Below are positions 13,842-27,496 of a DNA stretch of 64,000 nucleotides, piece by piece. The stretch comes from Cupriavidus neocaledonicus (GTDB lineage: Bacteria; Pseudomonadota; Gammaproteobacteria; Burkholderiales; Burkholderiaceae), in assembly GCF_000372525.1 (NCBI RefSeq), contig NZ_AQUR01000101.1:124001-188000 (forward strand), written 5' to 3'. How positions within the stretch are numbered: position 1 is the stretch's first letter; each line of letters begins with the position of its first letter. The notes beneath the pieces were generated by a model. The model was not told the origin of the DNA. It made no database searches and worked only from the letters and a program-made list of their open reading frames with translations. The position numbers and the translations under genes were made by a program.

Positions 13842-14200
13842 GGGGCCGACCTGGTTTCGACGTGGGTTACAAAGCAGTGGAGGGCATACCGAGGACCCGT
13901 CACCTCGTTAATCAATGGGAATGCAATAACTGCTAACGACGAACGTTACGCACTGGCAGCCTAAGGGCCGCCGTCCTCGCACTGGCTCGCTGACGGGCTA
14001 GGGTCGCAAGACCACGCGAGGTCATTTACGTCAGATAAGCTCCGGAAGGGTCACGAAGCCGGGGACGAAAACCAAGTGACTCGCCGTCGTAGAGCGTGTT
14101 CGTCCGCGCTGCGCCGGTTAAATCAAATGACAGAACTAAGTATGTAGAACTCTCTGTGGAGGGCTTGCGGACGCGGGTTCGATTCCCGCCGGCTCCACCA
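13842..14200 (+). ncRNA. ssrA: Transfer-messenger RNA (tmRNA)
   Basis: Rescues stalled ribosomes by trans-translation. The 5' end GGGGCCGACCTGGTTTCGAC and the 3' end GGTTCGATTCCCGCCGGCTCCACCA form the tRNA-like domain with acceptor stem and T arm. The tag reading frame starts at GCT 13932 and encodes ANDERYALAA before TAA at 13962-13964, the betaproteobacterial-type tag. CCA is encoded. The length of 359 bases is normal. It lies after ubiG-gph and is followed by an intrinsic terminator. Confidence 0.97.
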
Positions 14201-15627: not shown

Positions 15628-15689
15628 CGCTATCGCGGCAGTGATGCAACGCAGGCATGGTTCATCGCTACATCGCGGAATCGAAGGAC

Positions 15690-15695
15690 TACAAT
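15690..15695 (+). promoter_or_regulatory. Candidate -10 element for the 133-residue protein gene
   Basis: TACAAT at 15690-15695, 30 bp before the ATG at 15726, in a short relatively AT-rich patch. Confidence 0.35.
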
Positions 15696-15725
15696 AGCCC
15701 GCTGCAGTCCTTCAAGGTTTTCGCG

Positions 15726-16127
15726 ATGTCCGACCATCCCCGCTTCACCATCAACCGCTCCATGATCGCCCTGGTTCCGGAGCAGCCGTTCCTGGACTGG
15801 ATCCAGGCGGTCGATCCCCAGCCCGTGGCCGGCCTCACGCTGGAGCAGGTGCGCGAAGATCAGAGCGTGTTCCTGCTGCCCGAGGAGCTGGCGGACACGC
15901 ACGAGAACGCCGTACGCTGGGTCGAGAAGCGCTGGCAGGATTTCTTCGAATTCATGCTCGGCGAATGGTTCGACGACTCGGCGTGGCCCGAGGAACTGTC
16001 GCTGAAAATGTTTCGCGAGTGGTTCAGCGTGCGCTATCACTCGATGGTGTTCGACATGGCGCCCGATGTGCCGGTGATGCACGACGACTGGGACGACGAG
16101 GACGATTCGTCCGAGCTGCTGCACTGA
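15726..16127 (+). CDS. Conserved acidic protein of unknown function
   Basis: A 133-residue soluble protein that I do not assign to a named family, though similar proteins seem common in Burkholderiaceae. It is rich in Trp, Phe, Asp and Glu (for example RWQDFFEFMLGEWFDD near residues 70-85), has no signal peptide or membrane segment, and ends in a strongly acidic tail (HDDWDDEDDSSELLH). It stands alone with its own possible promoter. The ATG at 15726 is preferred over 15657 because the extra 23 residues would cover the promoter-like site. Confidence 0.72.
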   Translation: MSDHPRFTINRSMIALVPEQPFLDWIQAVDPQPVAGLTLEQVREDQSVFLLPEELADTHENAVRWVEKRWQDFFEFMLGEWFDDSAWPEELSLKMFREWFSVRYHSMVFDMAPDVPVMHDDWDDEDDSSELLH

Positions 16128-16181: not shown

Positions 16182-16676
16182 TCAAAGGAAGCGGTCAAGT
16201 ATCTTGCGGCTGTGCTTGTCCAGCGCCATCAGGTCGCGGATCAGGTAGTGGATGCCGTGCGTGTCCGAGATCAGCAGCGTGCTGCCCGCCAGGCGCCGGA
16301 TCGCTTCTTCGCCGCGCAGCACCAGATCGGTCTGGCCGCGGTCGGTCTTCACCGTCCACACGCTGGGCGTGGCGTAGGTCGAAACACTGACGATGCGCTC
16401 GATCTCCGGCATGAACTCACGCGAGGCGAGCTCCGCCTCGATCATGTCGCGCTCGGCGATCGGCAGGTCTTCGAGCCGCGGGATCCATACCACCTCATGC
16501 CCGTCGGCGCTCATCATGCCGATGCCTCCCTGCGGCGCCGAGATCGGGAAGGCACGCACCGGCACCACGCCTTCGTGGACGGTGCCGTCTTCGGCGATCA
16601 GCACCAGGCGGCCGAACGGATTGCGGTCCAGCGTGAACACGGGGGCCGGCGCGGCGGCGGCGATGTCATTGGGCAT
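16182..16676 (-). CDS. DUF1854 protein associated with the cyanophycin-locus ABC transporter
   Basis: A 164-residue protein of the DUF1854 family, found next to cyanophycin synthetase genes and a dedicated ABC transporter in betaproteobacteria. Visible features are FTLDRNPFGRLVLIAEDG near the start, a GGIGMMSADGHEVVWI segment, and a C-terminal helix (RDLMALDKHSRKILDRFL). There is no signal peptide or membrane helix, so it is likely cytoplasmic. Its start at 16676 lies inside the last codons of the ABC transporter gene (11-base overlap), so translation is coupled and the two products probably act together. Its function is unknown; an accessory or regulatory subunit is inference. Confidence 0.83.
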   Translation of the reverse strand: MPNDIAAAAPAPVFTLDRNPFGRLVLIAEDGTVHEGVVPVRAFPISAPQGGIGMMSADGHEVVWIPRLEDLPIAERDMIEAELASREFMPEIERIVSVSTYATPSVWTVKTDRGQTDLVLRGEEAIRRLAGSTLLISDTHGIHYLIRDLMALDKHSRKILDRFL

Positions 16677-18960
16677 GGGCGGTCTCGGGAATCTGGATGG
16701 GCTCTTGGGCGTCGTCGTCTTCGGTATCGACATTGCGCGCCTGCGCCTGGTAAAGCTTGTAATACGCGCCTTCGCGCAGCAGCAGTTCGTCGTGACTGCC
16801 CACTTCGACGATCTGGCCGCGGTCCATCACCACCAGCCGGTCGGCCTTGCGCAGCGTCGACAGGCGGTGCGCGATGGCAATCGTGGTACGGCCCTGCACC
16901 AGGTTGTCGAGCGCCTTCTGGATTTCCTTCTCGGTCGCGGTATCGACCGACGAGGTGGCCTCGTCCATGATCAGGATGCGCGGGTTGATCAGCAGCGCCC
17001 GCGCAATCGAAATGCGCTGGCGCTCGCCGCCCGACAGCGCCTGGCCGCGCTCGCCGACCAGCGAGTCATAGCCGTGCGGCAGCCGCAGGATGAACTCGTG
17101 CGCATGCGCGGCGCGCGCCGCGGCGATGATCTCCTCGCGCGTGGCGTCCGGCTTGCCGTAGGCGATGTTGTCTGCGATCGTGCCGAAGAACAGGAACGGC
17201 TCCTGCAGCACCAGGCCGATATGGCGGCGGTACTCCGAGACCGGCAGCGAGCGGATATCGACCCCGTCGACCCGGATCGCGCCCTCCGAGACGTCGTAGA
17301 AGCGGCAGATCAGGTTGACCAGCGTGCTCTTGCCCGAGCCGCTGTGGCCGACCAGCCCGATCATCTCGCCCGGCGCGATCGACAGGTTCAGGCCGCGGAT
17401 CACCGCGCGGTTGCCGTAGCGGAAGCCCAGGTCGCTCATGTCGATGGCGCCCTCGACCCGCTCCAGCCTGGCAGGCCGCGCCGGCTCCGGCACGCTCGAG
17501 ACATGGTCAAGGATGTCGAAGATGCGCTTGGCACCGGCGGCGGCCTTCTGCGTCACCGAGACGATGCGGCTCATCGAATCCAGCCGCGTATAGAACCGGC
17601 TGATATAGGTCAGGAACGCCACCAGCACGCCCACGGTGATGGCGCTGTGCGAAACCTGCCAGATGCCGAATACCCACACGATTAGCAGCCCGATCTCCGT
17701 CAGCAGCGTCACGGTCGGCGTGAACAGCGACCACACCGCGTTGACGCGGTCATTGATCGCCAGGTTGTGCTTGTTGGCCTCGCGGAAACGCGTGACTTCG
17801 CGCTTCTCCTGGGCAAACGCCTTGACCACGCGGATGCCGGGGATGGTGTCGGCCAGCACGTTAGTGATCTCGGACCAGATCCGATCGATCTTTTCGAAGC
17901 CGTGACGCAGGCGGTCGCGCACCAGGTGGATCATCCAGGCGATAAATGGCAACGGTACCAGCGTCACCAGCGCCAGCCACGGGTTGATCGAGACCAGGAT
18001 CACCGCCGTCATCAGGATCATCAGCACGTCGGTGGCGAAGTCCAGCAGGTGCAGCGACAGGAACACGCAGATGCGATCGCTTTCCGAGCCGATGCGTGCC
18101 ATCAGGTCGCCGGTGCGCTTGCCGCCGAAATACTCAAGCGACAGTTTGAGCAGATGTTCGTAGGTGGTCGTGCGCAAATCGGCGCCGATGCGCTCCGAAA
18201 CGCGCGCAAGCAGGTAGGTGCGCGCCCAGCCCAGCGACCAGGCCACCAGCGCCGCCCCGAGCAGCCCCGCCAAGTACAGCCGCACCAGCCCGTAGTCGAT
18301 CGGCACGCCGTTCTGGAACGGGATCAGCACCCGGTCCATCAGCGGCATGGTCAGGTACGGCGGTACCAGCGTGGCGGCGGTAGACAGTAGCGTCAGGAGG
18401 AAGCCGCCGAGCAGCTGCCAGCGGTAGGGGCGGGCAAAGCGCCAGAGCCGCAGCAGCGCCCAGGTCGACGGCGGCGTCTCCAGTTCGCGGCTGCATTGCG
18501 GGCACTGTTCCTCATCCGGCGGCAGCGGCGCCTTGCAGGTGGGGCACAACACCTCGCCCGCGGCGGCGGCCGGCCGCGACGCGGCGGCATCGCGCTGGGC
18601 CTCGAACTGGTCCGCCAGCCGCAAGGCCGCGGGATTGTAACCAAGCGTATATCGCCAGGTGGCGAGCCGGCCCGCCGGGCCGCTCAGTTCCAGCGTGCCT
18701 ACCCCCGCGTGGTCGGTATGCGAAAGGCGCAGCGCCGGTGCGATGTTCCATTCCCGCACAATTTTTTCGCCGGGGGCGCGGGCAACGATGCGCTGGTCGG
18801 TCACAACCAGCCACCCTTGGGTAAAATGCAGCCTCGCGTCGAGGTCCAGCCCCAGTCCGGCCAGGACAGTCTCGCCGGGTCGGAGCCACGATCCGGCTTC
18901 ATCCCGCCAGGGTTCATCGGCGGCAGTGGCAGTAGGGACAGGCAGGGAGGACTGGGTCAT
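16666..18960 (-). CDS. Cyanophycin-locus ABC exporter, fused permease/ATPase with N-terminal zinc ribbon
   Basis: A 764-residue half-transporter. Residues 1-125 form a soluble domain (PH-like or similar; LRPGETVLAGLGLDLDARL, LVVTDQRIVARA). A zinc ribbon follows with cysteines at 139, 142, 153 and 156. A six-helix exporter-type membrane domain starts near 165 (ARPYRWQLLGGFLLTLLS), and a C-terminal ATPase has GHSGSGKST, the signature LSGGERQRISIARAL, and IMDEATSSVD. It would act as a homodimer in the inner membrane. It diverges from cphA across 238 bp and overlaps the DUF1854 gene. Substrate unknown. The N-terminal additions are absent from ordinary lipid or peptide exporters of this type. Confidence 0.88.
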   Translation of the reverse strand: MTQSSLPVPTATAADEPWRDEAGSWLRPGETVLAGLGLDLDARLHFTQGWLVVTDQRIVARAPGEKIVREWNIAPALRLSHTDHAGVGTLELSGPAGRLATWRYTLGYNPAALRLADQFEAQRDAAASRPAAAAGEVLCPTCKAPLPPDEEQCPQCSRELETPPSTWALLRLWRFARPYRWQLLGGFLLTLLSTAATLVPPYLTMPLMDRVLIPFQNGVPIDYGLVRLYLAGLLGAALVAWSLGWARTYLLARVSERIGADLRTTTYEHLLKLSLEYFGGKRTGDLMARIGSESDRICVFLSLHLLDFATDVLMILMTAVILVSINPWLALVTLVPLPFIAWMIHLVRDRLRHGFEKIDRIWSEITNVLADTIPGIRVVKAFAQEKREVTRFREANKHNLAINDRVNAVWSLFTPTVTLLTEIGLLIVWVFGIWQVSHSAITVGVLVAFLTYISRFYTRLDSMSRIVSVTQKAAAGAKRIFDILDHVSSVPEPARPARLERVEGAIDMSDLGFRYGNRAVIRGLNLSIAPGEMIGLVGHSGSGKSTLVNLICRFYDVSEGAIRVDGVDIRSLPVSEYRRHIGLVLQEPFLFFGTIADNIAYGKPDATREEIIAAARAAHAHEFILRLPHGYDSLVGERGQALSGGERQRISIARALLINPRILIMDEATSSVDTATEKEIQKALDNLVQGRTTIAIAHRLSTLRKADRLVVMDRGQIVEVGSHDELLLREGAYYKLYQAQARNVDTEDDDAQEPIQIPETAHAQ

Positions 18961-19130
18961 GGATGGCGCGGCGTGCGTCCAGGAGTTGCGGACATAACTT
19001 GAAACAATTTAGGCCGGGCACGCGCTGGCGGCCCGCGAATTCGCCCGCAGTATACATAACGACGAACGGGCGGGTATTCCTGATGCATTGCACAATCACT
19101 TTTAGACCAAGAAAGTCAACCCGCTCTGTG

Positions 19131-19144
19131 CTGTAACGTTACTG
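19131..19144. promoter_or_regulatory. Palindrome CTGTAACGTTACTG between the ABC exporter and cphA
   Basis: GTAACGTTAC (19133-19142) is a perfect 10-bp palindrome, about 57 bp before the first cyanophycin synthetase start and 170 bp before the divergent transporter. It is a plausible operator for either direction. The rest of the 238-bp gap shows AT-rich patches but no promoter that I would call with confidence. Confidence 0.35.
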
Positions 19145-19198
19145 AAAGGTTAGGCTTCCATTTCTCGGGCGTTCCGCCCACTGCCTCAAGCTAATTCA

Positions 19199-21832
19199 AT
19201 GAAAAAGAAGGACATTGAGATTTTCGATGTCATGTCGCTGCGCGGCCCGAATATGTGGACATATCGGCCCGTTCTGGAGGCATGGGTCGATATCGGGGAA
19301 CTGGAGGATTTTCCCTCCAACACGATTCCGGGGTTCTACGAGCGCCTGTCGGCCTGGCTGCCGTCGCTGATCGAGCATCGATGCAGCATCGGCGAGCGGG
19401 GCGGCTTCCTGCAGCGGCTGAAGGAAGGCACGTGGCCGGGCCATATCCTGGAACACGTGACGCTTGAGCTGCAAAACCTGGCCGGGATGCCGGGCGGCTT
19501 CGGCAAGGCCCGCGAGACCCCGGTGCGCGGCGTCTACAAGGTGATCGTGCGCGCCTGGCACGAGGAAGTCACCCGCGCCGCCCTGTTCGCCGCGCGCGAC
19601 CTGGTCATGGCCGCGATCGAGGACCGTCCCTACGACGTCCCGGCCACGGTGGACCACCTGCGCCGCCTGGTCGACAAGCATTGCCTCGGTCCCAGCACCG
19701 CCTGCATCGTCGATGCCGCCGACGACCGCGACATCCCCGCGATCCGCCTGTCCGACGGCAACCTGGTGCAGCTGGGCTACGGCGCGCGCCAGCGCCGCAT
19801 CTGGACCGCCGAGACCGACCGCACCAGCGCCATCGCCGAAAGCATCTCGCGCGACAAGGACCTGACCAAGAGCCTGCTGGAATCCTGCGGCGTGCCGGTG
19901 CCGGAAGGCCGCCTGGTCGAATCGCCGGAGGACGCCTGGGACGCCGCCGAGGACATCGGCGTGCCGGTGGTGGTAAAGCCCTATGACGGCAACCACGGCC
20001 GTGGCGTGTTCACCAACCTGATGACCCGCGAAGAAGTCGAAACCGCCTACGGCGTGGCCATCGACGAAGGCAGCGGCGTCATCGTCGAGCGCTTCATCCC
20101 CGGCAACGAGCACCGCCTGCTGGTGGTGGGCGGCCGCCTGGTGGCCGCGGCCATGGGCGAGAGCGCCAGCGTGGTCGGCGACGGCAAGTCCACCATCGAC
20201 GAGCTGATCGAGCTGCAGATCAATTCCGATCCGCGCCGCGGCAGCACCGAGGACCACCCGCTCAACCGCGTGCGGCTCGACTCCGCCGCGCGGCTGGAAC
20301 TGAAGCGCCAGGGCATGGACGGCAGTTCGGTGCCGCCGGAAGGCCGCACCGTGCTGATCCAGCGCAACGGCAACGTCGCCTTCGATGTCACCGACCGCGT
20401 GCACCCCAGCGTCGCCGCGCATGCCGCGCTGGCCGCGCGCGTGGTGGGGCTGGACATCGCCGGCGTGGACCTGGTGGCCGAGGATATCTCGCGCCCGCTG
20501 CACGAACAGCGCGGCGCCATCGTCGAAGTCAACGCCGGCCCCGGCCTGCTGATGCATATCAAGCCGGCCGAAGGCACGCCGCGCCCGGTGGGCCGCGCCA
20601 TCGTCAACCACCTGTTCCCCGAGTCGGAAGACGACCAGGGCCGCATCCCGGTGGTGGGCGTGACCGGCACCAACGGCAAGACCGTGGTGGCGCGCCTGGT
20701 CGCGCGCCTGCTGCAGTTGTCGGGCAAGCATACCGGCCTGGCCTGCAGCGATGGCCTGTTCCTGGACCGCCGCCAGGTCGAAAGCGGCGACCGCGCCAAC
20801 TGGGAAGCCGGCCACCGCATCCTGATGAACCGCGCGGTCGAGGCCGCCGTGTTCGAGAACGACAGCGGCAGCATCCTGTCCGAGGGCCTGCCCTATGACC
20901 GCTGCCAGGTCGGCGTGGTCACCAACTTCGACCAGCCCGACCATCTCGGCGACTATTACGTCGAGGACGAAGACCGCATGTACAACGTGCTGCGCACGCA
21001 GGTCGACGTGGTGCTGCAGAACGGTGCCGCCGTGCTCAACGCGCGCGACGAGCGCCTGGTCGAGATGGCCGGACTGTGCGACGGCGACGTGATCTTCTTC
21101 GGCCTGACCCCGGAGCTGCCTGCGATCATGTCGCACCGCGCCGCGGGCAAGCGCGCGGTGTACGTGCGCGAAGGCAAGATCGTGCTGGCCAGCGGCACCA
21201 GCGAGACCGCGCTGGTCGACGTGGCCGCGGTGCCGCTGACCTACGACGGCCGCGTCGCGTTCCAGATCGAGAACGTGCTGGCGGCCGTGGCCGCCGGCTG
21301 GGCGCTGGGCATCTCCAATGACCTGATCCGCGCCGGCGTGGTGACCTTCGATGTGGGCCAGGTCGACGTGCCGGGCCGCTTCACGCTGTTCGAGCGCAAC
21401 GGCGCCACGGTGGTGGTCGACGACGCCCACAACGCTCCCGCGCTGGAAGCGCTGGCGACCGCGCTGGAGCGCTTCCCGGCCGAGCGCCGCATGGTGGTCT
21501 ACGGCGCCGGCGTGCAGCGCCGCGACGACGACCTGGTGCGCCAGGGCAAGGCCCTGGGCCAGCATTTCGACCGCGTGTTCCTGTGCGAGGATCGCAGCGT
21601 CAAGCGCGCCCTGCCCGACGCCGAGGCGCGCGCGCTGCTCAAGCAGGGCCTGTACGAAGGCCGGCGCGTGACCAAGATCATCGACGAAGGCACGCGCGCC
21701 AGCGCCATCGAAGCCGCTCTCGGCCAGCTGGTGCCGGGCGACCTGCTGGTGCTGCAGTGCGATGAGGCCGCCACCGGCGCCACCGTCGACCTGGTGCACC
21801 ACTGGATGGGCCAGCCCCCCCGCCGCGCCTGA
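19199..21832 (+). CDS. cphA: Cyanophycin synthetase (first copy)
   Basis: Makes multi-L-arginyl-poly-L-aspartate, a cytoplasmic nitrogen and carbon store, using ATP, aspartate and arginine. The protein has 877 residues: an N-terminal domain (1 to about 165), an ATP-grasp domain (about 190-480; DKDLTKSLLESCGVPVPEG, VVVKPYDGNHGRGV), and a Mur-ligase-like domain with P-loop GVTGTNGKT at residues 487-495 and DDAHNAPALEAL. The length matches CphA rather than the shorter CphA2. It is followed 42 bp later by a paralogue. Cupriavidus species are known to carry such a tandem pair. Confidence 0.95.
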   Translation: MKKKDIEIFDVMSLRGPNMWTYRPVLEAWVDIGELEDFPSNTIPGFYERLSAWLPSLIEHRCSIGERGGFLQRLKEGTWPGHILEHVTLELQNLAGMPGGFGKARETPVRGVYKVIVRAWHEEVTRAALFAARDLVMAAIEDRPYDVPATVDHLRRLVDKHCLGPSTACIVDAADDRDIPAIRLSDGNLVQLGYGARQRRIWTAETDRTSAIAESISRDKDLTKSLLESCGVPVPEGRLVESPEDAWDAAEDIGVPVVVKPYDGNHGRGVFTNLMTREEVETAYGVAIDEGSGVIVERFIPGNEHRLLVVGGRLVAAAMGESASVVGDGKSTIDELIELQINSDPRRGSTEDHPLNRVRLDSAARLELKRQGMDGSSVPPEGRTVLIQRNGNVAFDVTDRVHPSVAAHAALAARVVGLDIAGVDLVAEDISRPLHEQRGAIVEVNAGPGLLMHIKPAEGTPRPVGRAIVNHLFPESEDDQGRIPVVGVTGTNGKTVVARLVARLLQLSGKHTGLACSDGLFLDRRQVESGDRANWEAGHRILMNRAVEAAVFENDSGSILSEGLPYDRCQVGVVTNFDQPDHLGDYYVEDEDRMYNVLRTQVDVVLQNGAAVLNARDERLVEMAGLCDGDVIFFGLTPELPAIMSHRAAGKRAVYVREGKIVLASGTSETALVDVAAVPLTYDGRVAFQIENVLAAVAAGWALGISNDLIRAGVVTFDVGQVDVPGRFTLFERNGATVVVDDAHNAPALEALATALERFPAERRMVVYGAGVQRRDDDLVRQGKALGQHFDRVFLCEDRSVKRALPDAEARALLKQGLYEGRRVTKIIDEGTRASAIEAALGQLVPGDLLVLQCDEAATGATVDLVHHWMGQPPRRA

Positions 21833-21874
21833 CGCCCCAGCCCAACCGCGCATAGAAGACACGGAAACCGTTCC

Positions 21875-24445
21875 ATGGAAGTCTCCCGAATCAGGGCCCT
21901 GCGGGGCCCGAACCTGTGGTGCCGCCACACCGCCATCGAAGCGATCGTGGCCTGCCAGGACACCGCCAACATGCTGTCGGCCCTGCCCGGCTTCGAAGAC
22001 CGGCTGCGCGCCCGCTTCCCCGAGATCGGGCCGCTGCGCCCGGACGAGGAATCGGTCGAGCTGTCGCTGGCCCACGTGCTGGAAGTGACGGCGCTGCGCC
22101 TGCAGGCCGCCGCCGGCTGTCCGGTCACGTTCAGCCGTACCGCGCAGACGGTCGAGCCCGGCATCTACCAGGTGATCGTGCAATACAGCGAGGAAGAAGT
22201 CGGCCGGCTCGCCTTCGAGCTGGCCGAGGCGCTGTGCCACGCCGCGCGTCACGACACCCCGTTCGACCTGGCCGACGCGCTGCACCGCCTGCGCGAGCTG
22301 GACGAGGACGTGCGCCTGGGGCCAAGCACCGGCTCGATCGTCTACGCCGCGGTCGCGCGCGGGATCCCGTACCGGCGCCTGACGCAGGGCTCGATGGTGC
22401 AGTTCGGCTGGGGCAGCAAGCAGCGCCGCATCCAGGCGGCCGAGACCGACCGCACCAGCGCCGTGGCCGAGTCGATCGCGCAGGACAAGGAACTGACCAA
22501 GAGCCTGCTGCACGCCGCCGGCGTGCCGGTGCCGCTGGGCCGCTCGGTGCGCAGCGCCGACGAAGCCTGGGCCGCGGCGCAGGAAATCGACGCGCCGGTG
22601 GTGGTCAAGCCGCGCGACGGCAACCAGGGCAAGGGCGTGGCGGTGCGCATCCGCACCCGCGAGGAAGTGATGGCCGCCTACGAGGTCGCCTCGGACATCA
22701 GCTCCGACGTGATCGTCGAGCGCTATATCCCTGGTCATGATTTCCGCCTGCTGGTGGTCGGCAAGCAGCTGGTCGCGGCCGCGCGCCGCGATCCGCCGCA
22801 GGTGATCGGCGACGGCGTGCACACCGTGCGCCAGCTGGTCGAGGAAGTGAACCGCGACCCGCGCCGCGGCGAAGGCCATGCCACCTCGCTGACCAAGATC
22901 CGCTTCGACGATATCGCGCTGGCGACGCTGGCCAAGCAGAACCTGACCGCCGATTCCGTGCCGGCCGCCGGCACCCGCGTGGTACTGCGCAACAACGCCA
23001 ACCTGTCCACCGGCGGCAGCGCCACCGACGTGACCGACGACGTCCATCCGGACATCGCGGCGCGCGCCGTGGCCGCCGCGCAGATGGTGGGCCTGGACAT
23101 CGCCGGCGTCGACGCGGTGTGCGAGACCATGCTCAAGCCGTTCGAGGAACAGGCCGGCGGCATCGTCGAGGTCAACGCCGCGCCAGGCCTGCGCATGCAC
23201 CTGCAGCCGTCCTACGGCAAGGGCCGCGCGGTCGGCGAAGCCATCGTCTCGACCATGTTCGCCGACGGCGACGACGGCCGCATCCCGGTGGTGGCGGTCT
23301 CGGGCACCAACGGCAAGACCACTACGGTCCGCCTGATCACCCACATCATGGCCAGCAGCGGCCTGCGCATGGGCATGACCGGCACCGACGGGGTCTATAT
23401 CCAGGGCGAGCGCATCGACACCGGCGACTGCAGCGGCCCGCGCAGCGCGCGCAACGTGCTGCTGCACCCCGACGTCGACGCCGCCGTGTTCGAAACCGCG
23501 CGCGGCGGACTGCTGCGCGAGGGCCTGGCCTTCGACCGCTGCGACGTGGCGGTGGTGACCAACGTCGGCGAAGGCGACCACCTGGGCCTGTCCTACATCA
23601 ACTCGGTCGAAGACCTGGCGGTGCTCAAGAGCGTGATCGTGCAGAACGTCGCGCCGCACGGCATGGCCGTGCTCAACGCCGCCGACCCGATGGTGGTGCG
23701 CATGGCCGACGCCTGCCCCGGCAGCGTCACCTTCTTCGCGCACGATCCCGACCAGCCGGCCATGGCCACGCACCGCGCGCAGGGCAAGCGCGTGGTGTTC
23801 GTCGACGGCGCCGAGATCGTCGCCGCGGAAGGCGATGCCGAAGTACGCATCGCGCTGGCGGAGATCCCGCTGACGCGCAACGGCACCATCGGCTTCCAGG
23901 TCGAGAATGCGATGTCGTCGATCGCCGCCGCATGGGCGCTGGGCATCGACTGGTCGGTGATCCGCCGCGGGCTGGCCACCTTCGTCAACGATGCGCAGAC
24001 CGCGCCCGGACGCTTCAATGTGTTTGACTACCGCGGCGCCACGCTGATCGCCGACTACGGCCACAACCCGGATGCGATCCTGGCGCTGTGCAACGCGATC
24101 GAATCCATCCCGGCCCGGCGGCGCGTGGTGGTGATCAGCGGCGCGGGCGACCGCCGCGACGACGACATCCGCCGCCAGACCCAGATCCTGGGCGGCGCGT
24201 TCGACGAGGTCGTGCTGTATCAGGACCAGTGCCAGCGCGGCCGCGCCGACGGCGAGGTGCTGGCGCTGCTGCGCGAAGGCCTGCAGGGCGCGCAACGCAC
24301 CAGCCAGGTCGAGGAAATCCGCGGCGAGTTCCTGGCCATTGATACCGCGCTGTCGCACCTGCAGCCGGGCGACCTGTGCCTGATCCTGGTGGACCAGGTG
24401 GAAGAGGCGCTGGGGCACATCGCCGGGCGCATCGCGCAGGGGTAA
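21875..24445 (+). CDS. cphA': Cyanophycin synthetase (second copy)
   Basis: A second full-length cyanophycin synthetase, 856 residues, paralogous to the preceding gene and probably co-transcribed. The N-terminal part is shorter and begins VSRIRALRGPNLWCRHTAIEA. The ATP-grasp domain contains VVVKPRDGNQGKGV, and the Mur-like domain has P-loop AVSGTNGKTTT from residue 474. Both active centres look intact, so it may work as a partner, in a heteromer, or under other conditions. No cyanophycinase (CphB), CphE or isoaspartyl dipeptidase gene is present in the window. The gene converges with the permease gene at 24695. Confidence 0.94.
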   Translation: MEVSRIRALRGPNLWCRHTAIEAIVACQDTANMLSALPGFEDRLRARFPEIGPLRPDEESVELSLAHVLEVTALRLQAAAGCPVTFSRTAQTVEPGIYQVIVQYSEEEVGRLAFELAEALCHAARHDTPFDLADALHRLRELDEDVRLGPSTGSIVYAAVARGIPYRRLTQGSMVQFGWGSKQRRIQAAETDRTSAVAESIAQDKELTKSLLHAAGVPVPLGRSVRSADEAWAAAQEIDAPVVVKPRDGNQGKGVAVRIRTREEVMAAYEVASDISSDVIVERYIPGHDFRLLVVGKQLVAAARRDPPQVIGDGVHTVRQLVEEVNRDPRRGEGHATSLTKIRFDDIALATLAKQNLTADSVPAAGTRVVLRNNANLSTGGSATDVTDDVHPDIAARAVAAAQMVGLDIAGVDAVCETMLKPFEEQAGGIVEVNAAPGLRMHLQPSYGKGRAVGEAIVSTMFADGDDGRIPVVAVSGTNGKTTTVRLITHIMASSGLRMGMTGTDGVYIQGERIDTGDCSGPRSARNVLLHPDVDAAVFETARGGLLREGLAFDRCDVAVVTNVGEGDHLGLSYINSVEDLAVLKSVIVQNVAPHGMAVLNAADPMVVRMADACPGSVTFFAHDPDQPAMATHRAQGKRVVFVDGAEIVAAEGDAEVRIALAEIPLTRNGTIGFQVENAMSSIAAAWALGIDWSVIRRGLATFVNDAQTAPGRFNVFDYRGATLIADYGHNPDAILALCNAIESIPARRRVVVISGAGDRRDDDIRRQTQILGGAFDEVVLYQDQCQRGRADGEVLALLREGLQGAQRTSQVEEIRGEFLAIDTALSHLQPGDLCLILVDQVEEALGHIAGRIAQG

Positions 24446-24694: not shown

Positions 24695-25354
24695 TCAATG
24701 CCTCCCCGGCAGCGACAACCTCCGCTCCAGCCTGTGCTGCAGCCCTGACAACCCAGTGCTCAGCACCCAGTAGATCGCCGCCACCGCCAAATACAGCGGC
24801 AACGGCTGGTACGTGGCGGCGATCACCTCCTGCGCGGTGCGCAGCAGTTCGGTGACGGTGATCACCGATACCAGCGAGGTATCCTTGATCAGGCTGATCA
24901 GGCTGTTCGACAGGCTCGGCACCGCCAGCCGCAGCGCCTGCGGGCCCACCACGTAGCGCAGCGCCTGCGCCGGCGTCAGGCCCAGGCTGTAGGCCGCCAG
25001 CCACTGCCCGCGCGCCACGCCCAGGATGGCGCCGCGCATGCTCTCCGACAGATACGCGCCGACGTTCAGGCTCAGCGTCAGCACGCCCGCGGGCGTCGGT
25101 TCCAGCGCGATGCCGATGCCAGGAAGCCCGTAATAGACCACGAAGATCTGCACCAGCAGCGGCGTGCCGCGCATGATGCTGACATAGCCCCGCGCCGCCC
25201 CCTTGAGCGCGCGGCTATGGCTGATGCCCATCAGCGCCACCACCGTGCCCAGCATCAGCCCGAACACCATCGACCACAACGCGAACTTGATGGTCAGCAG
25301 CGTGCCCTGCAGCAGCACGGGCAGGGAGTCGATGACGAGCTGGAGAGCGGACAT
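24695..25354 (-). CDS. Amino-acid ABC transporter permease, cystine type
   Basis: A 219-residue inner-membrane permease of the polar amino acid (His/Glu/Gln/Arg) family. Several hydrophobic segments and the EAA-like loop (SLGLTPAQALRYVVGPQALR) are visible. It is about the size of TcyL/YecS of E. coli. It lies 109 bp after the cystine-type binding protein on the same strand. The ATPase subunit usually encoded next is missing here; the cyanophycin genes follow instead. It must borrow an ATPase encoded elsewhere. The exact substrate is inferred from the partner protein. Confidence 0.88.
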   Translation of the reverse strand: MSALQLVIDSLPVLLQGTLLTIKFALWSMVFGLMLGTVVALMGISHSRALKGAARGYVSIMRGTPLLVQIFVVYYGLPGIGIALEPTPAGVLTLSLNVGAYLSESMRGAILGVARGQWLAAYSLGLTPAQALRYVVGPQALRLAVPSLSNSLISLIKDTSLVSVITVTELLRTAQEVIAATYQPLPLYLAVAAIYWVLSTGLSGLQHRLERRLSLPGRH

Positions 25355-25463
25355 GGCGTGGCGGCGCGAAAAGGATCAGCAATAAAGGGCACAAAGCAAA
25401 GCGGCGCGGCAGCCATGCAGGCCGCCGCGCCGCGACATGATAACGCCCTGCCTGCCGTCCGGC

Positions 25464-26285
25464 TTACTTGACCGGCTTGCCGGCGGGCTTGGTCACATCG
25501 GTGCCGAACCACTTCACCGACAGCTTGCCGAGCGTGCCGTCCTTGGCCAGGTCCTCCAGCGCGTGGTTGATTGCCTGCGCGAACTTGGGGTTGTCCTTGC
25601 GGAACGGGATCGCCACCTGCGTGGTGGCACCCGCCACGATCGCGCCCGGGCGCAGCGGCAGGTTGGTGGTCTTGACCAGGTACGCGACCATCAGCCGGTC
25701 GTTCAGCGCGGCGTCGACGCGCTGTGCCGCCAGGTCGCGCAGGTACTCCGGCGCGCCGGGATAGGTCTTGACCTCGATGCCGGCCACCGACTTGGCCAGG
25801 TCGTTGTAGTTGCTGCCCAGGCTCACGCCCAGCTTGTGGCCCTTCAGGTCTTCCAGCGACTTGAACTGGCGCTTGTCATCCTTGCGCTGGATCAGCTGCG
25901 CATCCGAGTAGACGTAGGGCGTGGAAAAATCCAGCACCTGCTGGCGCTGCGGCGTGACGTTGACCTGGTTGACGATCACGTCGAACTTGCCCGCCTGCAG
26001 GCCGGCGATGATGCCGCTCCATTCGGTGGTGACGAACTCCGGCTTGACCCCGAGCTTGCCCGCCACCGCCCGCGCCACGTCGACGTCGAAGCCTTCCAGC
26101 TCGTTCTTTGCGCCACGGAAACCGAACGGGGGGTAGGTGCCTTCCAGCCCGATCTTCAGCACGCCGGCCTGCTTGACGGTGTCGAGCAGGTCGGCGGCAT
26201 GGGCGGCGGTGGCCGCCAGGCCGGCGCCGGCCACCAGGGAAGCGGCCAGCAGGGATTTGAACCAGCCAGTACGAAGCGATCGCAT
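25464..26285 (-). CDS. Amino-acid ABC transporter binding protein, cystine-binding (TcyJ/FliY) type
   Basis: A 273-residue periplasmic solute-binding protein (family 3) with a signal peptide (MRSLRTGWFKSLLAASLVAG, then AHAAD cleavage). Conserved segments LLDTVKQAGVLKIGLEGTYPPFGF, KFDVIVNQVNVTPQRQ and KWFGTDVTK resemble E. coli TcyJ (FliY) more than glutamate or arginine binders. L-cystine uptake is therefore likely, but substrate assignment by resemblance is tentative. It forms a pair with the downstream permease. Confidence 0.85.
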   Translation of the reverse strand: MRSLRTGWFKSLLAASLVAGAGLAATAAHAADLLDTVKQAGVLKIGLEGTYPPFGFRGAKNELEGFDVDVARAVAGKLGVKPEFVTTEWSGIIAGLQAGKFDVIVNQVNVTPQRQQVLDFSTPYVYSDAQLIQRKDDKRQFKSLEDLKGHKLGVSLGSNYNDLAKSVAGIEVKTYPGAPEYLRDLAAQRVDAALNDRLMVAYLVKTTNLPLRPGAIVAGATTQVAIPFRKDNPKFAQAINHALEDLAKDGTLGKLSVKWFGTDVTKPAGKPVK

Positions 26286-26479
26286 ATGTTCTCCAGTCGA
26301 TGCGGATAAGCAGTGTGGGGCAGCGCCGGCCGGCCTCTTTTGGAGCGCCGACGGCTGTTGTGCTGCTATGAGCCTATATCGGGCTCAACACTACCGCAAA
26401 CACTATCGAACGCTAAATATCGATTCATCATGGCTAAATAACCGCGGGGCACGATTGCGCTCCCGCGGGCCATCCTGCC

Positions 26480-27391
26480 CTACTGGTAGGCCTTGTCGTT
26501 GGGCGCCGCGAACAGCGCCTTCATGTCGGCCGACAGCGGGTAGTTCATGTTGATGCCGCGCGGCGGAATCGGCGACATGAACCACTTGTTGTACAGCTTC
26601 TCGGCGCGGCCGCTGGTCTGCAGGTCGGCGATCACGCCGTCGGCCAGCTTCTTGAACGAGGGATCGTCCTTGCGGAACATGCAGGCGTAGTTCTCGGTCT
26701 GCAGCGGCGCGCCCACCACCACCCAGTCGGCGGCGTTCTTGGCCTTGGTGCGCTCGCCGTACAGCAGCGGCTCGTCCATCACGAACGCGGCGGCACGGCC
26801 CGTTTCCAGGATCAGGAAGGACTGGCCGTGGTCCTTGGTGCTGATCAGGTTCATGTTCATGGCCTTCTCGCCGTTCATCTTGACCAGCAGGCGCTCGCCG
26901 GTGGTGCCGGCGGTGGTAACCACGTTGCGGTCCTTCAGGTCGGCAAACTCCTTCACGCCCGAATCCTTCTTGGTCAGCATCTTGATGCCGTAGACGAACA
27001 GGCTGTTGGAGAACGCCACCTGCTTCTGGCGCTCGAGATTGTTGGTGGTGCTGCCGCATTCGATGTCGATGGTGCCGTTCTGCACCAGCGGGATGCGGTT
27101 CTGCGAGGTGATCGGCGTCAGGCGCACCTGCAGGTTGGGCATCTTCAGCTCGCTCTTCACCTTGTCGACGATCTGCAGCAGGATCTCGTGCGAGTAGCCC
27201 ATGACCTCCTTGCCGTCGGTGTACGAGAACGGGATCGACGATTCGCGGTAGCCGAGCGAGATCACGCCGCTGTCCTTGATCTTCTTCAGCGTGTCGCCGT
27301 CGGCGGCATGGGCAGCGCCGGCGGCGAGCAGCAGCGTGGCGGCGGCAAGCGCGCGGCGGGTGGCGGTTCGATGGGGGTGCAGCGTTTGCAT
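26480..27391 (-). CDS. Glutamate/aspartate-type ABC transporter binding protein (GltI-like)
   Basis: A 303-residue periplasmic binding protein with a signal peptide (MQTLHPHRTATRRALAAATL, AHAAD cleavage). It closely follows GltI of E. coli: VISLGYRESSIPFSY, ITSQNRIPLVQNGT, ECGSTTNNLERQKQVAFS and NPIPPRGINMN-like (here SPIPPRGINMN) segments. The ATG at 27391 has a good ribosome site (AAGGAGCG). No permease or ATPase is adjacent, so it is an orphan binding protein, lying between a cystine-type pair and dadA on the same strand. It may serve a GltJKL transporter encoded elsewhere. Confidence 0.87.
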   Translation of the reverse strand: MQTLHPHRTATRRALAAATLLLAAGAAHAADGDTLKKIKDSGVISLGYRESSIPFSYTDGKEVMGYSHEILLQIVDKVKSELKMPNLQVRLTPITSQNRIPLVQNGTIDIECGSTTNNLERQKQVAFSNSLFVYGIKMLTKKDSGVKEFADLKDRNVVTTAGTTGERLLVKMNGEKAMNMNLISTKDHGQSFLILETGRAAAFVMDEPLLYGERTKAKNAADWVVVGAPLQTENYACMFRKDDPSFKKLADGVIADLQTSGRAEKLYNKWFMSPIPPRGINMNYPLSADMKALFAAPNDKAYQ

Positions 27392-27496
27392 GTGGCGCTC
27401 CTTGTAGTGGGGCTTGGTCATTGAGGCATGCTTCATGGACAGCTTCAGGTACTGCGGACTTGCCGGTACGGCAACAACCCATGCTCGGCCGCGGCG

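Follow-up and report, generated by a model that had tools for sequence, protein, structure and literature searches.

Cyanophycin locus of Cupriavidus neocaledonicus joins two sister CphA paralogues, predicted to have lost opposite active sites, to an ABC transporter and a DUF1854 protein

Cyanophycin, a polymer rich in nitrogen, is made by enzymes of the CphA1 type. SuCphA1 of Synechocystis holds three active sites, in its N, G and M domains, in one chain, and the endo-cyanophycinase motif Cx19HxxEH has been described for CphA1, whose known N-site cutting activity is slow (PMC9262961). A SuCphA1 whose G and M sites have been inactivated primes the Tatumella enzyme TmCphA1 in trans (PMC9262961), and Arg323 has a role in aspartate binding (PMC9427784). 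TmCphA1 is primer-dependent, with its N site lost and its G and M sites kept, and is encoded by a single gene for which no N+ partner was found described. The text of PMC9262961 makes no mention of paralogous, tandem, truncated or two-copy CphA, nor of Proteobacteria or any term beginning Burkholderi-. The architecture closest to the one reported here is the Group 1 cphA cluster from activated sludge, which, in the accessible part of PMC10687191, has two cphA genes, an ABC transporter and no cphB; that part terms the two cphA genes copies and mentions neither DUF1854 nor a division of sites. The Burkholderiales strain Ralstonia eutropha H16 likewise has two CphA homologues (cphA/cphA'), and no cyanophycin was seen in its wild type, according to PMC11362209.

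We analyzed a window of 64,000 nucleotides from Cupriavidus neocaledonicus, in which all four genes of the locus were confirmed at their positions, with Pfam and NCBIfam in agreement. The minus strand carries a gene for a DUF1854 protein, a proposed ABC-transporter accessory subunit (16182..16733; PF08909, 178.3 bits; NF052234, 234.8 bits against the 150 needed), and one for an exporter-type ABC half-transporter (16666..18960; NF052233, 1453.1 bits against the 880 needed), which overlap by 68 bases if the DUF1854 protein starts at its first ATG. Diverging from them on the plus strand, beyond a 238-base gap (18961..19198), are the genes for CphA' (19199..21832; 877 aa) and CphA (21875..24445; 856 aa). 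The divergent arrangement and the overlap are as the preliminary description had them, and so is the makeup of the ABC protein, a soluble N-terminal domain followed by a zinc-ribbon-like segment with the cysteine pairs C139-x2-C142 and C153-x2-C156 (18493..18546, minus strand). A scan of 18900-19300 returned 0 promoters and 0 terminators, a sigma-54-like pattern gave 21 matches against 42.5 expected, with none in 18961-19198, and comparison of the intergenic region with that of a congener yielded nothing informative. We considered a larger conserved operon including the amino-acid uptake genes at 24695-27436 and rejected it, given that no extra ORF cluster occurred in at least 8 of the 51 loci; the eight clusters listed were the four genes themselves and frames inside them. 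A plasmid search with CphA' returned 140 records, every one of which was below 60% identity.

CphA' has the three domains of SuCphA1 and also its Cx19HxxEH motif, which forms a metallopeptidase-like site in the N domain (Cys62-His86; 19382..19456, plus strand). Among 51 CphA' orthologues, the motif residues C59, H79, E82 and H83 (SuCphA1 numbering) are each present in 51, as are their neighbors H57, F67, R70, E87 and Y110, so that every one of these proteins has both the motif and its surrounding site. The aspartate pocket of the G domain has gone from all of them. Arg323 is found in 0/51 and is replaced by Gly in 49 (Gly320 in the window, 20156..20158), Arg458 is likewise found in 0/51 and is replaced by Leu in 48 (Leu451, 20549..20551), and the loop bearing Ser396 is deleted, with a gap at 396-398 in 51/51 (20366..20371; all on the plus strand), while the aligned Asn394 is retained in 45/51. 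Adames 2013 reportedly describes a shortened loop in the CphA' of Ralstonia eutropha H16. CphA, compared across 50 orthologues, has the opposite losses: its HxxEH motif is broken to HVLEV (22073..22087, plus strand), the Cys is also missing, and the equivalents of Cys59 and His83 occur in 0/50. Its aspartate pocket is kept (Arg323, Ser396 and Arg458 each in 49/50, with one row gapped), and so are Lys499, Arg561, Asp585 and His586 of the M domain, all in 50/50. CphA thus resembles TmCphA1 in its sites, but the catalytic His267, which TmCphA1 keeps and which is His in all four kinds of solved CphA1, is Gln in 47/50 CphA proteins, and given this replacement CphA may itself be altered. CphA' for its part resembles the N+ G- M- mutant of SuCphA1 (PMC9262961).

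In eight other full-length CphAs, all 18 scored sites were present in one protein. In the tree, each paralogue formed a single clade (100/100), and both together were separate from the rest (100/94). Judged by these residues and this tree, CphA' and CphA are sister paralogues that have lost opposite active sites, and the sites that SuCphA1 combines in one chain are here divided over two. The preliminary description had called them two full-length cyanophycin synthetases; the length holds, but by its residues CphA' is unlikely to be a synthetase. Both window proteins do exceed the 850-bit cut-off of TIGR02068 (895.8 bits for CphA' and 987.6 for the three-domain CphA), and the window CphA' is long and retains its P-loop, as two redundant or differently regulated synthetases would. 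However, most CphA' orthologues score below 850 bits, 44/51 are 660-773 aa long (the window protein is among seven of 813-878 aa), the pocket loss extends to all 51, and 42/51 have a gap at residue 745 in the C-terminal M subdomain. Redundancy was rejected as very improbable because the site loss is complementary and fixed within each clade. A literature search covering paper listings and selected passages and sections found no description of this split of sites. What is new here, on the sequence evidence, is the nature of the two synthetases as a split pair with opposite site losses; the tie of the transporter and DUF1854 to cyanophycin was already known from NCBIfam, and a cluster with two cphA genes and an ABC transporter but no cphB is in print (PMC10687191).

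The remainder of CphA' bears on what the protein may do. Its arginine-adding M domain is, by its residues, degenerate, with Lys499 in 15/51, Asp585 in 13/51 and His586 in 11/51, even though the window protein retains the P-loop Lys and the Asp-His pair. We considered that CphA' could be a noncatalytic or regulatory pseudo-enzyme partner of CphA, its N domain binding cyanophycin with no useful cutting, a reading with which both this decay (as at Lys499) and the slowness of the studied N site (PMC9262961) would agree. We regard it as quite unlikely, given that nine N-site residues, including the zinc ligands and the general base, are present in 51/51, that a domain for binding alone would have no need of the catalytic Glu, and that dN/dS against a congener is lower in the N domain than in the other domains of CphA' (0.066; in CphA the lowest is the G domain, at 0.063). 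The ATP-grasp core of the CphA' G domain is also kept (of 51: K220 50, K261 51, E300 51, R309 51, H267 49, E450 50, N452 50), and the commonest replacement has a mean share of 0.84 in G versus 0.43 in the M core. These conserved replacements beside a kept core would suit an altered ligase no less than a scaffold. CphA' might accordingly cut and also ligate a new acceptor, its ATP-grasp domain activating the polymer end and adding something other than aspartate, to give a modified beta-Asp-Arg oligomer that is exported and secreted, not stored. The kept ATP-grasp core, the uniformity of the changes at Arg323 and Arg458, the linked exporter and the lack of cyanophycinase all favor such a ligase; yet the G domain may be retained merely for assembly with CphA, the most divergent CphA' (G091, L007) has lost His267 and kept the N site, and the flanks of the 51 loci hold no recurrent tailoring gene. 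We consider it unlikely. The wider version of this idea, in which the locus is no nitrogen store at all and CphA builds, CphA' cuts and tags the ends with a non-aspartate group, and ABC-DUF1854 secretes short zwitterionic oligomers, seems to us rather unlikely; were it true, about one-third of the sampled Burkholderiales genomes would encode an undescribed secreted isopeptide derived from a duplicated storage-polymer enzyme.

We instead favor a reading of the locus as a split cyanophycin system, which is probably correct, with CphA as builder, CphA' as cutter and, much less surely, ABC-DUF1854 moving the products. An ancestral CphA would have duplicated and the copies then lost opposite active sites. 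CphA would polymerize, adding Asp via its G domain and Arg via its M domain, with no ability to cut, whereas CphA', with Asp and Arg addition unusable, would cut through its intact N site as a dedicated endo-cyanophycinase and primer maker. CphA' would provide primers for CphA and, on demand, cut cyanophycin to short (beta-Asp-Arg)n in place of the absent CphB, and the separate genes would let building and cutting be adjusted independently. What the sequences show is which genes are present, how they co-occur, that the two CphAs are paralogues and which sites each kept or lost; the catalytic activities, complex formation, and the substrate and direction of transport we infer.

The preliminary description noted no cyanophycinase in the window, and we found no match to TIGR02069 at E<=0.001 in the entire genome, so a cyanophycinase elsewhere in it was rejected and a canonical CphA with CphB is not what this genome has. 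Cyanophycinase lay beside cphA in 0/50 split loci, and TIGR02069 matches occurred elsewhere in 7/50 split-pair genomes, four of them above the cut-off. One PF01112 protein in the window genome (373.2 bits; G000:C104) belongs to a family of isoaspartyl-dipeptide-hydrolyzing enzymes and is a candidate by family. According to Sharon and Schmeing (PMC10206079), beta-proteobacteria make up 903 of 1,614 CphA1 genomes and only 2.8% of them have cyanophycinase, a rarity that the same text calls unanticipated and for which it proposes unknown isozymes. CphA' would be a candidate for this missing beta-proteobacterial cyanophycinase.

The ABC exporter and the DUF1854 protein would act together and may carry charged cyanophycin-derived molecules out of the cytoplasm, with short beta-Asp-Arg oligomers or the dipeptide as the likeliest cargo. 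This outward movement is the weakest step and remains doubtful, because ABC-DUF1854 elsewhere occurs without cphA nearby. The window proteins belong by score to NF052233 and NF052234, whose names give the cyanophycin association, as the preliminary description had it, and no function or substrate; neither DUF1854 nor the phrase 'cyanophycin metabolism-associated' was found in any paper by our literature search. Against the PDB, a fold search with DUF1854 gave no match at E<=0.001 and a sequence search gave 5 hits, all with E>=0.17. The AF2 model of the ABC N-terminal domain (mean pLDDT 90.2) is PH-like, and the zinc ribbon is inconstant, at least 6 of 39 aligned relatives lacking the cysteine pairs by eye. 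With helix limits also set by eye, helices 3 and 6 of the Burkholderiales branch have D307 in 48/49 and D311, R455, R459 and D461 in 49/49, whereas just 2 of 12 relatives share D307 and D311, and at the remaining three positions the residues are mostly different. A claim of unusual charge in the ABC helices was dropped, given a summed six-helix mean of about 8.0 versus 8.8 in relatives.

Of 150 Burkholderiales genomes, 50 had the ABC gene, and DUF1854 was present in exactly these 50, all of which have cphA' and cphA, including three in which the pair lies away from the cphA genes (G329, ~0.77 Mb; G298, ~13 kb; G218, ~8 kb). Of the 6 DUF1854 genomes in the class sample, 3 (G001, G043 and G184, all gamma) were without CphA. 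Twelve DUF1854 loci had no cphA in the available DNA, up to 10 kb per side. Their sources were gamma-proteobacterial MAGs, Armatimonadota, Poribacteria, Clostridia and unplaced bacteria, and three of the loci lie on the same contigs as G184, G001 and G043; L148, L150 and L153 have an ABC-DUF1854-ABC arrangement. The preliminary description had proposed a survey of cphA loci and reckoned that genes found mostly away from cphA would speak against the association. Within Burkholderiales they are not so placed, but outside the order they are. ABC-DUF1854 is a wider module, tied to cyanophycin in one lineage, because it occurs outside Burkholderiales without CphA. It is quite possible, if short of an even chance, that the pair has a general function, such as exporting lipids, drugs or arginine, and is no more than a companion of the cyanophycin genes, perhaps relieving stress or arginine overload. 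The loci from Armatimonadota, Poribacteria and Clostridia, the three gamma genomes and the PH-like domain are consistent with this, but the pair always accompanies cphA'-cphA in Burkholderiales, unlinked cases included, and its charged helix residues are fixed in that branch and mostly not in relatives.

In summary, if CphA' is a dedicated endo-cyanophycinase, the beta-proteobacterial cyanophycinase gap gains a named, assayable candidate, a hydrolase currently annotated as a second synthetase. This would explain why testing one gene alone may mislead, and it would make available a polymerase that can be expressed apart from its cutter. The uncharacterized exporter and its DUF1854 partner would gain a defined biochemical context, and the split, with a dedicated pump, may explain why these beta-proteobacteria lack the usual breakdown enzyme.

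The locus that the preliminary description proposed, a cyanophycin locus with a divergent ABC exporter and a DUF1854 gene, is real, and all four genes are where it placed them. On the minus strand, the gene for an exporter-type ABC half-transporter (16666-18960; 764 aa; NF052233, 1453.1 bits) is overlapped at its end by the DUF1854 gene (16182-16733; NF052234, 234.8 bits). A gap of 238 bases separates these from the plus-strand genes cphA' (19199-21832; 877 aa; TIGR02068, 895.8 bits) and cphA (21875-24445; 856 aa; TIGR02068, 987.6 bits), both of which exceed the TIGR02068 cut-off of 850 bits. The association with cyanophycin genes was, as also stated there, already known, given that both transporter-pair families carry the NCBIfam name "cyanophycin metabolism-associated" and that the available part of one study describes a cluster of two cphA genes and an ABC transporter without cphB (PMC10687191). 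A 156-aa reading frame adjoining DUF1854 (15657-16127) had no Pfam or NCBIfam match. Amino acid uptake genes (a cystine-type permease and binding protein and a glutamate/aspartate-type binding protein) lie just past cphA on the opposite strand (24695-27436) in a neighborhood that is not conserved, and a tmRNA gene with the tag peptide ANDERYALAA is found at 13842-14200.

The reading of two synthetases holds insofar as both proteins pass TIGR02068, but by its residues the first, CphA', resembles a cutter and not a builder. We aligned 51 CphA' and 50 CphA sequences with SuCphA1, part of TmCphA1, and seven other CphAs (input, 57 matches minus 7 of ≤700 aa), using SuCphA1 numbering. The primer-making endo-cyanophycinase site of the SuCphA1 N domain consists of C59, H79, E82, and H83 (PMC9262961, available text). 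All four are present in 51/51 CphA' sequences, as are H57, F67, R70, E87, and Y110. In CphA, C59 and H83 are each found in 0/50 and F67 and R70 fall within a deletion; H79 (41/50) and E82 (33/50) persist despite the broken site. The G-domain pocket for the substrate aspartate (Arg323, Asn394, Arg458, and the space next to Ser396; PMC9427784, available text) is kept at each site in 49/50 CphA sequences, the remaining row being gapped. In CphA', Arg323 (0/51; Gly in 49) and Arg458 (0/51; Leu in 48) are replaced, the Ser396 loop is deleted in 51/51, and the aligned Asn394 is retained in 45/51. The M-domain residues Lys499, Arg561, Asp585, and His586 are present in 50/50 CphA sequences; in CphA', Lys499 is found in 15/51, Asp585 in 13/51, and His586 in 11/51, and 42/51 are gapped at residue 745 in the last M subdomain. 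Seven CphA' sequences, that of the window among them, are long (813-878 aa); each retains the P-loop Lys along with the Asp-His pair and has an altered ETARGG.

Among 11 other CphAs, eight (L099-L102 and L156-L159) hold all 18 scored sites in a single chain, the two at a second locus of genome G239 have lost the N site and carry Gln267, and a CphA-like piece in G319 is without an N domain. Gln also replaces the catalytic His267 in 47/50 CphA sequences, and His267 is present in solved CphA1s from four organisms. This replacement may be tolerated, since both CphAs of the G239 second locus, which has a cyanophycinase, share it. The CphA' G domain retains its ATP-grasp core, and one replacement tends to predominate at each of its lost invariant sites (the most frequent residue having a mean share of 0.84, versus 0.43 in the M core). 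Judged from these residues, the domain does not appear plainly dead, and it may have a role in assembly or act as a ligase on another substrate.

In a maximum-likelihood tree of the N and G domains (60 rows; bootstrap not fully settled), CphA' and CphA each formed one clade (100/100 each) and were jointly set apart from the rest (100/94); thus, a single duplication suffices. In this tree, the closest relatives of the split pair are the CphAs of the G239 second locus (L106, 9470-15625), two divergent genes with a cyanophycinase match adjoining one. Against one congener (G568), dN/dS for the N domain, G domain, M core, and M lid was 0.066, 0.146, 0.180, and 0.287 in CphA' and 0.154, 0.063, 0.123, and 0.189 in CphA. 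The strongest constraint in each paralogue coincides with its retained site.

The claimed co-occurrence at cphA loci stood in Burkholderiales; its exclusiveness did not. In a tool-drawn sample of 150 Burkholderiales genomes, DUF1854 and the ABC family each occurred in 50, the identical 50, and cphA' and cphA were present in 50/50 of these (the pair being cut by contig ends in G189, G214, and G234). CphA in G195 (L082, 15267-17844) and the ABC gene in G234 (L095, 4013-6246) are each in two adjoining pieces, from assembly error or a real break, and were kept as pieces. The two gene pairs are divergent and adjoining in 45/50 genomes, all four genes share one orientation in G246 and G294 (order ABC, DUF1854, cphA', cphA), and the pairs are separated in G329 (~0.77 Mb), G298 (~13 kb), and G218 (~8 kb), where they are still co-inherited. 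In a 51st genome with the cphA pair, G305, the contig ends within the ABC gene. Both ABC and DUF1854 were absent from G225, G269, G310, and G296, which have only an other-type full-length CphA; G319 (79% complete; incomplete CphA-like gene) was kept out of the classification. In a class sample of 185 genomes, seven had CphA at E ≤ 1e-170: the window genome (G000), G107, and G091 have the tandem with DUF1854, and the other four are without DUF1854. With G305 excluded, ABC and DUF1854 occurred in 51/51 tandem genomes versus 0/8 others (Fisher exact, 4.5e-10, kinship ignored). CphA was nonetheless absent from three of the six DUF1854 genomes of the class sample (G001, G043, and G184). An ABC gene adjoins DUF1854 in two of these; G043 retains only a shortened DUF1854 (L011, 9944-10276) with no recognizable ABC gene adjoining. 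This locus is decayed, given that G184, of the same family, has both genes.

Scanning genome contigs for DUF1854 yielded 12 loci, three identical to those of G184, G001, and G043. An ABC gene adjoins DUF1854 at 10/12 (exceptions, L145 and L151), and no cphA was found in the examined flanks (≤10 kb per side). DUF1854 was also found in the control genome Sulfolobus acidocaldarius; the ABC-DUF1854 module is thus wider than its cyanophycin tie. Three clostridial loci have ABC genes on both sides of DUF1854 (L148, 7557-12704; L150, 6092-11156; L153, 6894-13076), which suggests a heterodimeric exporter built round DUF1854. In the window ABC protein, which carries the Walker A, Walker B, and signature motifs, the N-terminal domain evolves fast (dN/dS, 0.282 versus 0.087 for the membrane domain) and models as a PH-like fold (mean pLDDT, 90.2). 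The sole PDB match of this domain at E ≤ 0.001 was 4tyz (8.1e-4), and most of the next-ranked matches were PH-domain proteins (E, 2e-3 to 1.5e-2). The DUF1854 model (mean pLDDT, 88.7) had no PDB fold match at E ≤ 0.001. In helices 3 and 6 of the ABC protein, D307 (48/49) and D311, R455, R459, and D461 (49/49 each) are fixed in this branch; among 12 relatives, two have D307 and D311, and the other three positions mostly differ. These charges would match a zwitterionic beta-Asp-Arg substrate, which is weak evidence because the helix boundaries were set by eye and the summed helix charge is no greater than in relatives.

The absence of a cyanophycinase from the window was borne out and extends to the whole of G000 (6.77 Mb, 107 contigs), with no TIGR02069 match at E ≤ 0.001. 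This genome has one PF01112 protein (373.2 bits), a family that we take to be that of IaaA. TIGR02069 was over the cut-off in 9/150 Burkholderiales genomes, and no match lay near any of the 50 split loci. Four split-locus genomes have a match elsewhere (G205, G239, G251, and G285) and three a weaker one (G189, G258, and G295), on other contigs or at least ~179 kb distant. At four of five other-type CphA loci (G225, G310, G296, and the G239 second locus), a cyanophycinase lies within 5 kb (Fisher versus split loci, 1.5e-5); in the fifth, G269, it is on a different contig. This scarcity agrees with Sharon and Schmeing, who in the available text report that 2.8% of 903 beta-proteobacterial genomes with CphA1 have a cyanophycinase and call this "unanticipated" (PMC10206079).

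By its residues, CphA' resembles a natural form of the SuCphA1 construct with dead G and M sites, which primes TmCphA1 in trans (PMC9262961). We propose that CphA' would supply primers to CphA and would open the polymer on nitrogen demand. As described in the same text, the balance of two activities in one enzyme is not adjustable through expression; placing building and cutting in two genes would remove this limit. The SuCphA1 N site is slow and yields mainly tetramers (PMC9262961), so further breakdown steps would be needed beyond CphA'. Wild-type R. eutropha, which has two CphA homologues, shows no cyanophycin according to the available part of one report (PMC11362209), which would fit the cutter reading. 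The reason to follow this locus is that, in bacteria without a cyanophycinase, one "synthetase" looks from its sequence more like a cutter than a builder.
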